Below the pieces are notes generated by a model. It had not been told where the DNA came from. It made no database searches and was given only the letters and a program-made list of their open reading frames with translations. From Mogibacterium sp. (GTDB lineage Bacteria; Bacillota; Clostridia; Peptostreptococcales; Anaerovoracaceae): a stretch of 43,933 bases of DNA. Made by a program: the position numbers and the translations under genes. Location: positions 1 to 43,933 of the forward strand of contig JAFQZQ010000001.1 of NCBI GenBank assembly GCA_017405845.1, in the 5' to 3' direction. Positions 38,449-43,933 of this stretch are shown here, piece after piece. Every line of letters begins with the position of its first letter. Positions within the stretch are counted from its first letter, which is position 1.

Positions 38449-41112
38449 TTATTTAAGTTCGTACCAGGTTTTGCCAGTATGTATATCGCAGACCAGATCA
38501 ACTGCAAAATCAGCTGCGCTCATCATGCAGTTCTCAAGTATATCCTTCACTTCGTCTGCTTCTCTCTCAGGTCCCTCTACTATCAGTTCGTCGTGGATCT
38601 GGAGTATGAGCTTTGACTCAAGTCCCCTTCTGCGGAGCTCTGACGACACAGAATTCATTGCAATCTTAATTATATCAGCTGCTGTACCTTGAATAGGGGT
38701 ATTCATTGCAAGTCTTTTTGCGAGTTCGCGCTCCATGAATTTGCGTGAAGCGAATTCAGGCAGTTTGCGAACACGGCCGAAGTGCGTCCTGACCTCGCGT
38801 GTTTCTTCACCTGTCTCTATCTGCTTATCAAGGTATTCTTTTACAGCTGTATGTTTTGCGAAATACTCGTTGATATACCTTTGAGCATCACTTCTTGTTA
38901 TATTAAGGCTTTCACCAAGGCCGAAGCCGCTCATACCGTAAACTACACCAAAGTTAACAGCCTTAGCTCTTGTTCTGTCGAGAGCAGTTACTTCTTCTTC
39001 AGGTATATCAAAAACTCTGGAAGCTGTCGCTCTGTGGATATCCTTACCCGCGCGGAAATCTGCTATCAGGGATTCATCTCCGCTGAGTGCGGCAAGAATG
39101 CGCAGCTCTATCTGGGAATAATCAGATCCGGTGAATAAATCCCCGCTTTCAGTAACAAACGCCTTTCTGATCAGCCTGCCGTAATCATCACGGATCGGTA
39201 TATTCTGCAGGTTAGGTTCTGTGCAGCTTAATCTTCCGGTAGCAGCGACAGTCTGCATGAAATGAGGTCTTACCCTGCCGTCTTCTCCAATCAGCGGAAG
39301 CAAACCATCAACGTAAGTACTCTTTAGTTTAGCGACCTTCCTATAGGCTAATACATCTGCAACTATCTTGTGATCGTCCTTAAGCTTATCGAGGATGTCA
39401 GCAGCGGTCGAATACGATCCGCTCTTGTTTTTACCCGGCTTAGGATATGGTATCTGCATGTTTTCAAACAGAATTACTCCAAGCTGCTTAGGCGAGTTGA
39501 TATTGAATGTGCAGCCCGCCTCAGCAAATATTTCACTTTCGAGTTTATCAATGTTTTCAGCCAGCTCGTCACCGATTTCCGTCAGAATCGAAGGCTCGCA
39601 TTTGATGCCCTCAAGTTCCATACGCGCAAGAGTCAATACAAGAGGCATTTCGCACTCATCGAATAGTTTTTTAAGGCCATTCTCATCGAGAGACTTCTCC
39701 TGTGCAGGCCTTACCTTCGATACATAGAAAGCTCTTTTCAACAGCCTTTCCGGATCAGCCTCAAGAGAATTGTATGATATGTCATCAGCTAAAATATCAG
39801 CTTCGGATTCCTTTGATGCATATCCTGCGTACCTCAGGAGCATCTTATCGAGAGTATACTTCTGCCTGTTAGCATCAAGCAGGTATTCGGCAATCATGAC
39901 ATCATAATGCGGGTCAAGTTCGGAATCCGATTTGGCAAGCATTGAGTAGAGAATGCGCTTAAGTCCGCAGCCGCACAGCTTATATGCCTTTTCGGCAATC
40001 TGACTGGTAACGATGGCTTCATCCATCGGTGTCAGTTCTTTAACACATGCAATGTTCTTATCTGCGCTGTAAAGACATATAAATCTGATTTCAGGCTCAG
40101 AAATATGATTTGCATCAGCAGAAGCTTCGATATATACCTCACTGCCTTCTTTAATGTCACTAAGAAAGCTTTCAAGGTCGGTACGTTTTACTGCTGCGAA
40201 TTCCTCATCGAAATCTGCTGACGAAACTTCTGCTGCGCCAGCACTTCCGCTCATTCCGGCATGCAGCTTTTTGATAAATGAGTTGAATTCCAGTTCAGTA
40301 TAGATAGCGATAAGCTTTTCCATATCCGGGCCGGTCAGCTCAAGGTCTTTCCACTCGAATTCTACAGGAGCCTGCGTGTTGATGGTTGCAAGCCACTTTG
40401 ACATGCGTGCAACTTCGATATTGTCACGAAGCTTCTCACCCATCTTGCCCTTGATTTCATCCGCATGATCAATCAGGTTTTCAAGGCTGCCATACTCTTC
40501 GAGAAGAGCTATGCCCTTCTTCTCTCCTATGCCGGGTACTCCCGGAATGTTATCAGAGCTGTCACCCATAAGCCCCTTGAGATCGATGAACTGCTTAGGT
40601 GTAAGATTGTATCTTTCACGCATCGCATCGCTGTCATATAGATCGAATTCGGTCATGCCACGCTTGTTTATAAGCACATTAACATGCGGACCAACAAGCT
40701 GCAGCTCGTCTTTATCGCCCGAAATAACCAGCGTATCCAGTCCATCTGCTTCTGCTCGCGCTGCAACAGTACCGATAATGTCATCCGCCTCGTATTGTGG
40801 GACCTCAAGGACTGCTATATTCATAGCATCAAGAACATCGTGGAGTAAAGGTATCTGCGAAAGCAGTTCAGGCGGTGTTTTAAGCCTGCCTGCCTTATAT
40901 TCCTTGTAGACCTCATGTCTGAAAGTGCCGCCTTTAAGATCGAATGCGACAGCCATATGTGAAGGCTCATAATCGTTTATGATCTTTCCGAGCATATTAA
41001 CAAAGGCAAACACACCTTGAGTGTGAATGCCTTTGGAAGTTACCATTGGTCTCATCGCAAAGTATGCTCTGAAAAGCAGACTGTTGCCGTCAATGAGAAT
41101 TAGTTTTTTCAT
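38449..41112 (-). CDS. polA: DNA polymerase I
   Basis: An 887-residue family A polymerase. The 5'-nuclease domain (about 1-290) has DGNSLLFRAYFAM and GDSSDNIPGVPGIGEKKG. The 3'-5' exonuclease-like domain (about 300-470) lacks the DxE and other acidic residues needed for proofreading, for example VYIEASAD in place of motif I. The polymerase domain has motif A DYSQIELRILAALSGD, motif B RTRAKAVNFGVVYGMSG and motif C QIHDELIVEG. It removes RNA primers and fills gaps in repair. Loss of proofreading is usual in Bacillota PolA. Confidence 0.95.
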   Translation of the reverse strand: MKKLILIDGNSLLFRAYFAMRPMVTSKGIHTQGVFAFVNMLGKIINDYEPSHMAVAFDLKGGTFRHEVYKEYKAGRLKTPPELLSQIPLLHDVLDAMNIAVLEVPQYEADDIIGTVAARAEADGLDTLVISGDKDELQLVGPHVNVLINKRGMTEFDLYDSDAMRERYNLTPKQFIDLKGLMGDSSDNIPGVPGIGEKKGIALLEEYGSLENLIDHADEIKGKMGEKLRDNIEVARMSKWLATINTQAPVEFEWKDLELTGPDMEKLIAIYTELEFNSFIKKLHAGMSGSAGAAEVSSADFDEEFAAVKRTDLESFLSDIKEGSEVYIEASADANHISEPEIRFICLYSADKNIACVKELTPMDEAIVTSQIAEKAYKLCGCGLKRILYSMLAKSDSELDPHYDVMIAEYLLDANRQKYTLDKMLLRYAGYASKESEADILADDISYNSLEADPERLLKRAFYVSKVRPAQEKSLDENGLKKLFDECEMPLVLTLARMELEGIKCEPSILTEIGDELAENIDKLESEIFAEAGCTFNINSPKQLGVILFENMQIPYPKPGKNKSGSYSTAADILDKLKDDHKIVADVLAYRKVAKLKSTYVDGLLPLIGEDGRVRPHFMQTVAATGRLSCTEPNLQNIPIRDDYGRLIRKAFVTESGDLFTGSDYSQIELRILAALSGDESLIADFRAGKDIHRATASRVFDIPEEEVTALDRTRAKAVNFGVVYGMSGFGLGESLNITRSDAQRYINEYFAKHTAVKEYLDKQIETGEETREVRTHFGRVRKLPEFASRKFMERELAKRLAMNTPIQGTAADIIKIAMNSVSSELRRRGLESKLILQIHDELIVEGPEREADEVKDILENCMMSAADFAVDLVCDIHTGKTWYELK

Positions 41113-41126
41113 GCTTTTTCTCCGGT

Positions 41127-42854
41127 TTAATGCATTTCCGCTGCTGCCGGCAGGCCATATGCGCTTTCAGCTGAAAGCGCTCCGTCTATTACTGCATACT
41201 GTACGACATCGGTCGCAAGCGCAGCGAATGCGTCAAAGTTAACCTTTTGTTTGCCTGTTGCAAGAACGAATATCGTATCACCGTCAAGTGTGCTGTGGAC
41301 CGGCTTTATTGCCCTTGCGTAAGCATCATGAAGTATAGAAGCGAGTTTGTTTGCCTGTGACTTTGTAAGCTCAGCATTGGTGATCAGACATGTTATCGTT
41401 GTGTTGAATGTAATGTCATAGCCCATTTCTTCTCGCGTGAGAGCGACAGGCTCCTCTACCGGCTCTTCGTAGAGTTCTTCGACTGGTTCTTCAACCGGCT
41501 CCTCGAAGTGCTCTTCGACTGATTCTTCAGCCGGTTCTTCGAATTGCTCTTCGACCGGCTCCTCGAAGTGCTCTTCGACCGGTTCCTCAGCTGGTTCTTC
41601 GACCGGTTCTTCAGCCGGTTCTTCGAAGCGCTCTTCGACTGGTTCCTCAGCCGGTTCTTCGAAGTGCTCATCGACTGGTTTTTCAGTCGGTTCTTCGAAT
41701 TGCTCTTCGACCGGCTCCTCGAAGTGCTCTTCGACCGGTTCCTCAGCCGGTTCTTCTGCAATAACAGGCTCCGCTACCGTTTCAGGTATAGATGCTTCTG
41801 CAAATCTGATCAAACTATCTTCCGTAACTTCTACAACAGGAGTATCCGGTACGAATTCTTCTACCGGTTCTTCTGTCGGAACCTCAGGTTCTTCAAAGTA
41901 TTCTTCTACCGGTTCTTCAGCTGGTGCCTCAGGTTCTTCGAAGTTTTCCTCTACAGGTTCTTCTGCAGGAATTTCTTCCGACTGAGCCTCAGGAACATTC
42001 TCTTCTGCAGGAGTTACGATTGCTTCATCTTCAGAAACTTCAGTGACCGGTTCTTCTTCAGTAGCAGCTTCTACGGAAGCCTTTGCAGCTGTTTCTTCTT
42101 CGTATTGTCTGGCAGCTGCAGCAAGCGCTTCTTCTATCTCAGATCTGTTAATAAATGAAGTGCTGTCATCAATAAGTCTGATTCTGTCGTGAACCATACT
42201 CTTTAATGTTTTTATGGTTCCATAAATGGCCTTGCCGTCCTCCGACCTCAGACCCGCTATGATTTTACCAGCGCCGTTATATATGTCACCCACAGCATTG
42301 ACTGCCGCTATAGCGCCGACTTCAATGAAACCGTCTCCGCAGGCAAAAGTTCCGAGGCCGCTCTTCATTGCTCTGTCATAGCCTTTGATTTTACCAACAG
42401 TAGCACCGGTGCCTGCACCATGATTTCCATTTGTGAAAGGTGCAGAATAAGCGTTTCGCACAGCCTGGATCCCCATGTTAACGTCAGGGAAAGCCTTGTG
42501 ATCGCCTATAGGCAGGTCGTATAAAGACGCACCGCAAACGATAGGAACAACAATATCATCACCCACATCGAATCCGATTCTGTTTTCTGCCAGCTCTCTC
42601 ATGACGCCCGAAGCAGCTTCGAGACCGAATGCCGAACCTCCGCTTAAAACGACGGCATTTACAGCATTAACGGTGTTCTCGCTTCTGAGCAGATCCGTTT
42701 CTCTTGTTGCCGGACCTCCGCCTCTTACATCAACGCCTCCTACAGCCCCTTCTTCACATATGATAACTGTGCAGCCGGTACCCTTTTCGCTGTTCTCCGC
42801 ATTACCGAGTTTAAACCCCTTTATATCGGTAATGCTGATTTTTTTCATAGCCAT
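41127..42854 (-). CDS. P1 (S58/DmpA) family self-processing peptidase with acidic repeat insert
   Basis: A 575-residue protein made of a normal P1/S58 (DmpA, NylC-like) enzyme interrupted by a huge insert. Residues 1-235 form the first part of the fold (VVLSGGSAFGLEAASGV, NHGAGTGATVGKIKG, GDIYNGAGKIIAGLRSEDGK). Residues 480-575 form the second part, starting at FNTTITCLITNAELTK and including INPVH-like IKPVHSTLDGDTIFVLATG. In this family the chain cleaves itself before a Ser/Thr nucleophile, here probably N484/T485. Between them, about 236-479, lies a Glu/Pro/Val-rich tract with EEPVEEHF-type repeats that ordinary family members lack. After cleavage it would be the C-terminal tail of the alpha chain. 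Family enzymes are aminopeptidases or amidases; this substrate is unknown. The start is the ATG at 42854 with AAAGGA six bases before it; an in-frame GTG at 42878 is less likely. Confidence 0.85.
   Translation of the reverse strand: MAMKKISITDIKGFKLGNAENSEKGTGCTVIICEEGAVGGVDVRGGGPATRETDLLRSENTVNAVNAVVLSGGSAFGLEAASGVMRELAENRIGFDVGDDIVVPIVCGASLYDLPIGDHKAFPDVNMGIQAVRNAYSAPFTNGNHGAGTGATVGKIKGYDRAMKSGLGTFACGDGFIEVGAIAAVNAVGDIYNGAGKIIAGLRSEDGKAIYGTIKTLKSMVHDRIRLIDDSTSFINRSEIEEALAAAARQYEEETAAKASVEAATEEEPVTEVSEDEAIVTPAEENVPEAQSEEIPAEEPVEENFEEPEAPAEEPVEEYFEEPEVPTEEPVEEFVPDTPVVEVTEDSLIRFAEASIPETVAEPVIAEEPAEEPVEEHFEEPVEEQFEEPTEKPVDEHFEEPAEEPVEERFEEPAEEPVEEPAEEPVEEHFEEPVEEQFEEPAEESVEEHFEEPVEEPVEELYEEPVEEPVALTREEMGYDITFNTTITCLITNAELTKSQANKLASILHDAYARAIKPVHSTLDGDTIFVLATGKQKVNFDAFAALATDVVQYAVIDGALSAESAYGLPAAAEMH
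41439..41750 (-). repeat. Two tandem 156-bp coding repeats (52 residues each)
   Basis: Residues 369-420 and 421-472 of the P1 peptidase are tandem copies (41595-41750 and 41439-41594) with about 10 differences. Aromatic residues occur at a spacing of 8, 12, 12 and 20 residues, and the pattern then repeats. The basic motif inside is EEPVEEHF or EEPAEEPV. A looser version occurs at residues 296-333 (about 41856-41969). Confidence 0.8.
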
Positions 42855-42905
42855 ATATAATCCTTTGGTTCTTTCCACAGGCTTATTAGGTTAATAATAC
42901 CATAT

Positions 42906-43933
42906 TCAGAAGCTTTTTTTAATCATTTCAGCATCCGGTTCCTCTTTGCAAAGAGAGCCAACAACAAAGTATGCTATACCACTGACGATAAGGCCGGCAA
43001 TTATCTCATGTATTCCAAGTGGAAGTATCTTCACTCTGTTGAAGAAAATGAATACTGCAAGGCCGCAGATAACGGATGCAAGGCATGCCTTGCTGTTACC
43101 TTTCTTCCAGTAAAGGCCTCCGATAACAGGCCAAAAGAACGTAGCCTCCAGGCCGCCAAATGCGAACAGATTGATCCACACGATAACATCAGGCGGATTC
43201 AGTGCGAGCAGGCATGCAATAATGCCGATACCTGCAGTAAGAGCGAAGCTGTACTGAGGTACTTTCCTGTATGCTTCATCATATTCGGATTTTGCAGCTT
43301 CTATTGCATCGAAAGGCACCTTCTTGATGTAGTGCACATAGATGTCCTTGATTATCGTAGCCGAGGCAAGTATCAGCAGCGAGTCTATAGTTGACATTAC
43401 TGCAGCCAAAGGAGCTGCCAGGAAGAAGCCTGCAGCCCATGCCGGCATGTATTCCATAACTACATAAGGAATCACCTGGTCAGTGCTTTCAAGTCCTCCT
43501 TCAGGGAGAAGCGGGAATGCAAGTGTACCTGCAAGATGCATTCCGATCATCAGGATTCCAATCACTACTGTTCCGTAAATCATTGCTTTATGCATTGACT
43601 CGGTATCCTTAAATCCCATGCATCTGACAGCAGTCTGCGGAAGTCCAAGTACTGCTATTCCTACCAGTACCCAGAACGAAATCAGTGCGCCGGGTCTGAG
43701 AGCTGCGATCTCAGCACCGTACTCTCCTTTGCCCATGAGATCCCAGCCCGGATTATTTGCATCAAGATTGCCTATTATGTTTTCCATGCCGCCTGCTTGC
43801 TTAATAACAAAGAACAGAAGCAGGAAAGTTCCGCATGTCATTACAATACCCTGAATAGTATCAGTGGTTACAACGGCTTTAAAGCCGCCAACAGATGTAT
43901 AGATGATTACAACCGCTCCGAACAGAAGCAGTC
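42906..43933 (-). CDS. panF: Sodium/pantothenate symporter, partial (5' end outside window)
   Basis: The C-terminal 341 residues of a sodium:solute symporter (SSS family) cut by the right edge. Coding continues upstream of the first internal ATG at 43841 with YTSVGGFKAVVTTDTIQGIVM, which fits PanF, so 43841 is not the start. Later marks include GLPQTAVRCMGFKDTESMH and AAPLAAVMSTIDSLLILAS, also PanF-like. About nine membrane segments are visible. It imports pantothenate, the CoA precursor, with sodium, and coaE lies further down the strand. Other SSS substrates cannot be fully excluded. Confidence 0.82.
   Translation of the reverse strand, partial: LLLFGAVVIIYTSVGGFKAVVTTDTIQGIVMTCGTFLLLFFVIKQAGGMENIIGNLDANNPGWDLMGKGEYGAEIAALRPGALISFWVLVGIAVLGLPQTAVRCMGFKDTESMHKAMIYGTVVIGILMIGMHLAGTLAFPLLPEGGLESTDQVIPYVVMEYMPAWAAGFFLAAPLAAVMSTIDSLLILASATIIKDIYVHYIKKVPFDAIEAAKSEYDEAYRKVPQYSFALTAGIGIIACLLALNPPDVIVWINLFAFGGLEATFFWPVIGGLYWKKGNSKACLASVICGLAVFIFFNRVKILPLGIHEIIAGLIVSGIAYFVVGSLCKEEPDAEMIKKSF

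Follow-up and report, generated by a model that had tools for sequence, protein, structure and literature searches.

What could a self-cleaving hydrolase do with a long, strongly acidic segment placed directly before the bond that it is predicted to cut? The question is raised by a P1/S58 peptidase gene on contig JAFQZQ010000001.1 of a Mogibacterium sp. genome (GCA_017405845.1), within the stretch of 43,933 nucleotides analysed here, which as a whole is called the window below. Judged from its sequence, the product is a NylC/ThnT-type hydrolase of the P1/S58 family, and the unusual unit is a clade and not this single protein, that is, a lineage-wide variant of a known enzyme family. We tentatively favour, at somewhat less than even confidence, the reading that the clade-wide insert before N484/T485 becomes a free polyanionic tail of the alpha chain, which could surround the enzyme as an electrostatic brush.

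The insert and the predicted self-cleavage bond

The gene and its parts are arranged as follows:

41127..42854, minus strand: P1/S58 peptidase gene, 575 residues from the ATG (MAMKK...)
42186..42854, minus strand: alpha-chain core, residues 1-223 (Pfam match at 15-198 in a 583-residue numbering, PDB alignments, AlphaFold2 (AF2) block means mostly above 90)
42060..42146, minus strand: predicted helix, residues 237-265, at the start of the inserted segment (AF2)
41415..42059, minus strand: acidic Glu/Pro/Val tract, residues 266-480, predicted disordered (composition and AF2)
41784..41858, minus strand: embedded motif EFVPDTP-x13-EASIP, residues 333-357 (motif search)
41400..41423, minus strand: GYDITFN|T flank with the predicted N484/T485 self-cleavage bond (sequence and alignment)
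41130..41402, minus strand: beta chain, residues 485-575 (PDB alignments, alignment A1, AF2)

Residues are numbered in the 575-residue ATG form, as in the initial annotation; an alternative GTG start gives the frame 41127..42878 (minus). In a profile search the protein matches Pfam PF03576 (Peptidase_S58) in two stretches, at 117.1 bits against a cut-off of 23.9, and NCBIfam holds no family for it. Its fold is that of S58, and the structures of Nyl50, ThnT and NylC align to it on either side of the insertion. The initial annotation had described an S58 enzyme split by a Glu/Pro/Val tract at residues 236-479 and had proposed alignment to solved S58 structures as a check. The PF03576 match and the coordinates agree with that description, and the alignment confirms the insert, ThnT having 11 residues between query residues 233 and 481. 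What changes is the extent of the disordered part. Residues 236-479 (window 42149..41418) are indeed acidic, with 97 Asp or Glu versus 7 Lys or Arg, but their first part is modelled as a helix, so that the disordered acidic part covers about 266-480 (91 Asp/Glu, 4 Lys/Arg, 32 Pro and 26 Val among 215 residues). The structure model comprises a confident core, the helix at 237-265 and then about 215 residues predicted to be disordered: the predicted local distance difference test score (pLDDT) is 91-93 over residues 241-260 and about 65 at the helix ends, and its block means are 44-55 for residues 271-480. A model of the orthologue L016 also has a helix there, at lower confidence.

The solved relatives illustrate how far this architecture departs from the family. 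Nyl50 (PDB 9cxr) is the best match in sequence and fold, yet it has 305 residues, with about 20 separating its two matched stretches. In the nylon-oligomer hydrolase NylC (PDB 3axg, 5xyg, 7yu0) the equivalent segment, loop 5, has about a dozen residues, compared with roughly 250 extra and strongly acidic ones in the window enzyme; this loop (residues 258-269) is described as flexible, with 261-266 invisible, and is located at the tetramer surface (PMC6021441). The pantetheine hydrolase ThnT (PDB 3tm1, 3s3u) has no acidic insert, and DmpA (PDB 1b65) and BapA also do without one. BapA differs further in its nucleophile, which is Ser, since its precursor was trapped by changing Ser250 (as given in the title of the PDB entry), versus the predicted Thr485 of the window enzyme. 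NylC and Nyl50 have drawn interest as nylon hydrolases, and in the solved enzymes a short loop precedes the self-cleavage bond. In one open-access library we found no paper pairing a P1 family peptidase with Mogibacterium, nor one pairing family S58 with a disordered insertion.

An Asn followed by Thr or Ser marks the nucleophile in this family, and here the pair is N484 and T485, both invariant across 50 aligned S58 proteins (alignment A1). K164, N186, D524 and D526 are invariant in the same 50 rows. For NylC, Lys189 and Asn219 are named as presumed active-site residues (PMC6021441). The conserved Asn-Thr pair and the position of the insert just before the predicted bond are in line with the initial annotation, and its proposal that cleavage, which we infer to occur at N484/T485, would put the tract on the alpha chain is supported as well. 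Its further proposal of a tail that anchors the enzyme at a surface is improbable: read by eye, the N-terminus shows no signal peptide and no anchor, so the enzyme looks cytosolic.

A variant shared by six genera

The initial annotation knew of no family member built in this way. The view of a protein standing alone is not borne out, as the insert is routine in the genus and present in five sister genera. An S58 match is present in 37 of the 47 genomes from the genus, and 33 of these yielded an inserted orthologue; of the other four, G016, G017 and G030 hold fragments at contig edges and G040 only an insert-free paralogue. Ten further inserted orthologues come from the five sister genera of the same family, which brings the total to 43 from six genera. 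Their linkers span 28-423 residues (median 179), compared with 9-17 residues in a set of 25 insert-free S58 proteins from the same family, and the distance from GGSAFGL to NTT is 176-571 in the inserted proteins and 157-165 in the insert-free ones. These 25 are part of the insert-free S58 loci, the length comparison being made apart from the other S58 group (e.g. L003, L004, L032-L063) and from L012 and L018. Some genomes of the genus also encode an S58 paralogue without the insert, which is represented among the 25; its spacing is 160 in all of seven loci (L005-L008, L010, L012, L018).

In a tree built from the core only, with the tract excluded, a branch with support 100/99 separates the 43 inserted proteins from the rest; the tree program flagged long branches for L072, L082, L127, L068, L009 and L119, all of which were kept. 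Searches with the beta chain as query point to the same boundary. In the family genomes the frames holding the 14 best matches are 360-587 residues long, and the remaining ones mostly have 320-370, some being cut at contig ends and a few being longer with a one-piece S58 match. Among the matches listed, the order-level search agrees with the family pattern. At the phylum level, where only matches to E 1e-18 were kept, 33 of 398 genomes match and only the window's own has a frame above 440 residues. Altogether, no insert outside the clade occurs among the matches listed from 197 family, 393 order and 398 phylum genomes. Frames above 400 residues outside the clade were rejected as inserts, the S58 match spanning 915-963 bases in one piece in G126, G154, G075, G061 and G072 and 918-969 bases in G445, G507 and G743.

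Charge, sequence drift and a possible role of the tail

According to the favoured reading, self-cleavage at the predicted bond would free one end of the tract, the other end staying tethered on the alpha chain. By analogy the enzyme may be a NylC-like tetramer, in which case four tails of about -90 each would emerge at the surface near the subunit interfaces. We infer that such tails act by bulk charge: they could exclude anionic substrates or macromolecules and prevent aggregation, with the helix and the embedded PETP-SIP motif as possible docking points.

The comparison of orthologues provides the main argument. In 11 near pairs the tract is 41-72% identical where it can be aligned, and the alpha core 85-98%. 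At the same time the linker carries a net negative charge in 42 of the 43 proteins, the exception being the short L009. The 43 tracts consist of 27% Glu, 13% Ala, 9% Pro, 6% Asp and 6% Lys plus Arg, with 3 Trp in 6909 residues. The sequence thus drifts freely while the charge stays. This pattern would be expected of a tail that acts through bulk electrostatics, and it favours the brush.

The main rival, which we consider rather unlikely, is a near-neutral expansion: a disordered surface loop would tolerate repeat slippage, its acidity would be the drift state of a soluble loop, and the tail would have no task. The spread of linker lengths and the low identity of the tracts are compatible with this, and so are two tandem arrays, whose periods of 24, 36, 45 and 60 are multiples of 3 and all in-frame:

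41444..41756, minus strand: tandem array with periods 24/36/60 (Tandem Repeats Finder)
41855..41971, minus strand: second tandem array with period 45 (Tandem Repeats Finder)

Long open frames in another strand or frame also lie over the repeat array (41544-42158, plus; 41456-41761, minus), and these most probably arise as side effects of the array's in-frame period and of codon bias. Against neutrality stands the divergence between repeat units of the window tract, which at first, second and third codon positions amounts to 11, 14 and 42 differences at lag 12 and to 9, 10 and 28 at lag 20. Third positions differ most, so the array is no fresh slippage product; as the compared codons overlap, the chi-square for this excess serves as a rough guide. 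The negative charge of 42 of 43 linkers includes non-repetitive tracts, which also speaks against drift alone. Finally, aligned Glu residues are replaced by Ala (61), Asp (50), Val (31), Pro (29), Gln (23), Thr (23), Ser (19), Lys (14) and Gly (4), among others. If charge were irrelevant, one would expect many changes to Lys or Gly, each a single transition away from Glu; they are rare, although transitions are frequent, GAA and GAG differing in 145 of 412 shared Glu columns.

Two motifs likewise argue against a loop without a task, as both exceed shuffled sequences within the genus. A helix motif near the tract start occurs in 25 of 33 genus loci (mean 1.3 and maximum 6 in 200 shuffles), with a pattern that was relaxed after a stricter version had missed true cases. 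The second motif is of the type EF[IV]P[ED]TP-x12-14-ExSIP; a looser search pattern finds it in 67 of 120 homologues and in none of 200 shuffled sets, and its spacer is 13 residues long in 60 of the 67. These homologues are the best 120 of 5090 matches to a query that included the tract, so that tract-bearing proteins are favoured; two of them (P0008, P0120) carry the name Mogibacterium sp. The codon pattern for EF[IV]P[ED]TP has a single match in the window's genome, in this tract. By its own account the initial annotation would be refuted if homologues showed the tract to be a routine, unconserved linker in the genus. Half of this holds, since the tract is routine, but conservation is nevertheless found, in the negative charge, in the helix motif, in the second motif (8 of 43 loci) and in the flank described below.

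Several observations weigh against the brush. In L009 and L147 the extra length amounts to only about 17-20 residues, the net charge of L009 being 0 to +1, and linker charge densities range from about 0 to -0.40, so that the function cannot be strict. No S58 match was found in 10 of the 47 genus genomes, one of which (G024) is 99% complete, so cells can do without this protein. None of the 10 sister-genus loci has the helix motif, the 8 inserted loci with the PETP-SIP motif all belong to one genus, and the counts for both motifs are optimistic, their patterns having been drawn up after looking at the sequences. The substitution counts rest on low-complexity alignments, in which the replacements of Glu by Pro, Thr and Ser need two changes each. 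A larger Glu/Pro/Val tract in an unrelated, zinc-ribbon-like protein of the same genome suggests that the lineage may simply make such tracts. The core, moreover, has a median net charge of -7 in inserted proteins (L144, cut at its start, excluded) versus -8 in the 16 nearest insert-free ones; without a net positive gain, nothing points to a basic face that the tail could contact.

For this last reason a basic core patch that receives the tail was rejected as an explanation. A few core positions just before the insert (204, 216, 219) have gained Lys or Arg. The disordered acidic C-terminal tail of Hfq, which is reported to regulate its ring-shaped core (PMC5606850), offers a comparison in the manner of working only: Hfq is an unrelated protein and its acidic tip binds a basic core, in contrast to the window clade, whose core shows no net basic gain.

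The location of the tract in the loop preceding the bond also suggests maturation control, in which the tract would slow or time self-cleavage by straining or screening this loop before N484. The flank has changed together with the insert: the residue preceding Asn is Phe in 41 and Leu in 2 of the 43 inserted proteins, compared with Gly (GN) in all 16 nearest insert-free relatives. However, G-Y-[DN]-I-x-[FL]-N is found in 33 of 33 genus loci, and the flank stays constant in these sequences while the length of the adjoining tract varies more than tenfold. The local geometry therefore seems insulated from the tract, and we regard maturation control as quite improbable. Linkers of 28-423 residues on alpha cores as similar as those of the 11 near pairs suggest that large cargo can be accommodated at the processing site. 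With about 40 natural variants that differ in the length of this acidic region, predicted to be disordered, on one conserved enzyme, the clade also offers a ready series for studying bulk-charge effects.

Gene neighbourhood and other acidic tracts

Partner recruitment and nascent-chain effects are, like maturation control, weaker rivals than the neutral loop, and both draw on the surrounding genes. The order in the window is panF, P1, polA, coaE:

42906..43931, minus strand: panF, sodium/pantothenate symporter, truncated where the window ends (TIGR02119, 345.1 bits, cut-off 328.05)
38449..41112, minus strand: polA, 14 bases downstream of the P1 gene
37840..38433, minus strand: coaE, dephospho-CoA kinase (TIGR00152, 148 bits, cut-off 65.55)

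Directly downstream of all 43 inserted genes lies polA (40 found by pattern, 3 by eye from translations), with a gap of -4 to +90 bases in the 40 pattern-found loci, several of which overlap. In partner recruitment the freed tail would serve as a binding arm, the helix and the PETP-SIP motif docking a partner and the acidic stretch acting as a DNA-like or basic-protein-binding linker, with PolA as the first candidate. The near-fixed spacer of the motif and the constant presence of polA are consistent with this. Yet L127, which of the insert-free relatives is closest on the tree, also has polA directly after P1, so the linkage seems older than the insert; polA was not found by pattern next to the other 24 insert-free loci, two of which have less than 150 bases of downstream sequence. 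Adjacency of genes by itself shows no contact, and the full motif is confined to few loci of one genus. We therefore hold partner recruitment to be unlikely. A bolder version, in which self-cleavage is a device exposing a regulatory arm, the tail binds a partner encoded in the cluster (DNA polymerase I, for example) and the peptidase ring comes to serve as a multivalent polyanionic scaffold, is a long shot.

The upstream gene, called by C-terminal patterns in the 40 readable inserted loci, is yebC in 22, panF in 13 and another in 5; one panF and one yebC call were confirmed by hidden Markov model. The two alternate upstream of the P1-polA pair even within one genus and not in step with the tree. 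In nascent-chain control, acidic and proline-rich codons would slow or abort translation, dependent on Mg2+ or a helper, and thereby set the output of polA. Acidic nascent chains have been described to destabilise bacterial ribosomes, strong internal runs aborting translation in E. coli (PMC9718836), and YebC to help the translation of proline-rich stretches (PMC12234827). The overlapping or abutting polA and the frequent upstream yebC would fit. On the other hand, EttA-linked stalling is reported to require acidic residues among the first 30 (PMC11282234), whereas the tract begins at about residue 266; the window protein contains no PP, acidic runs in the tract never exceed three, and the window has panF upstream instead of yebC. 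This explanation is extremely doubtful.

A role in pantetheine salvage, suggested by the panF and coaE context, is weakened by the minority of loci with panF upstream; this gene and coaE in the window are no more than hints toward a ThnT-like pantetheine activity.

A codon pattern for EEPVEE also matches two other proteins of the window's genome, a zinc-ribbon-like one on contig C16 and a putative lipoprotein on C44, which counts in favour of the neutral loop. The first (L090; G000 contig C16, 16832-19849) has a zinc-ribbon-like N-terminus (C-x2-C, by eye), after which EEPVVEEPEVEE-type repeats extend over several hundred residues; the protein, of about 1000 residues, is open at the locus edge, and its Glu/Pro/Val tract is larger than that of the P1 enzyme. 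In the second (L103; G000 contig C44, 77290-80307) a EEPAEEPATEEVAEEPVEE spacer comes soon after a lipobox-like cysteine (by eye). Elsewhere in the window, a short tandem repeat with period 13 and 2.8 copies lies at 355-391.
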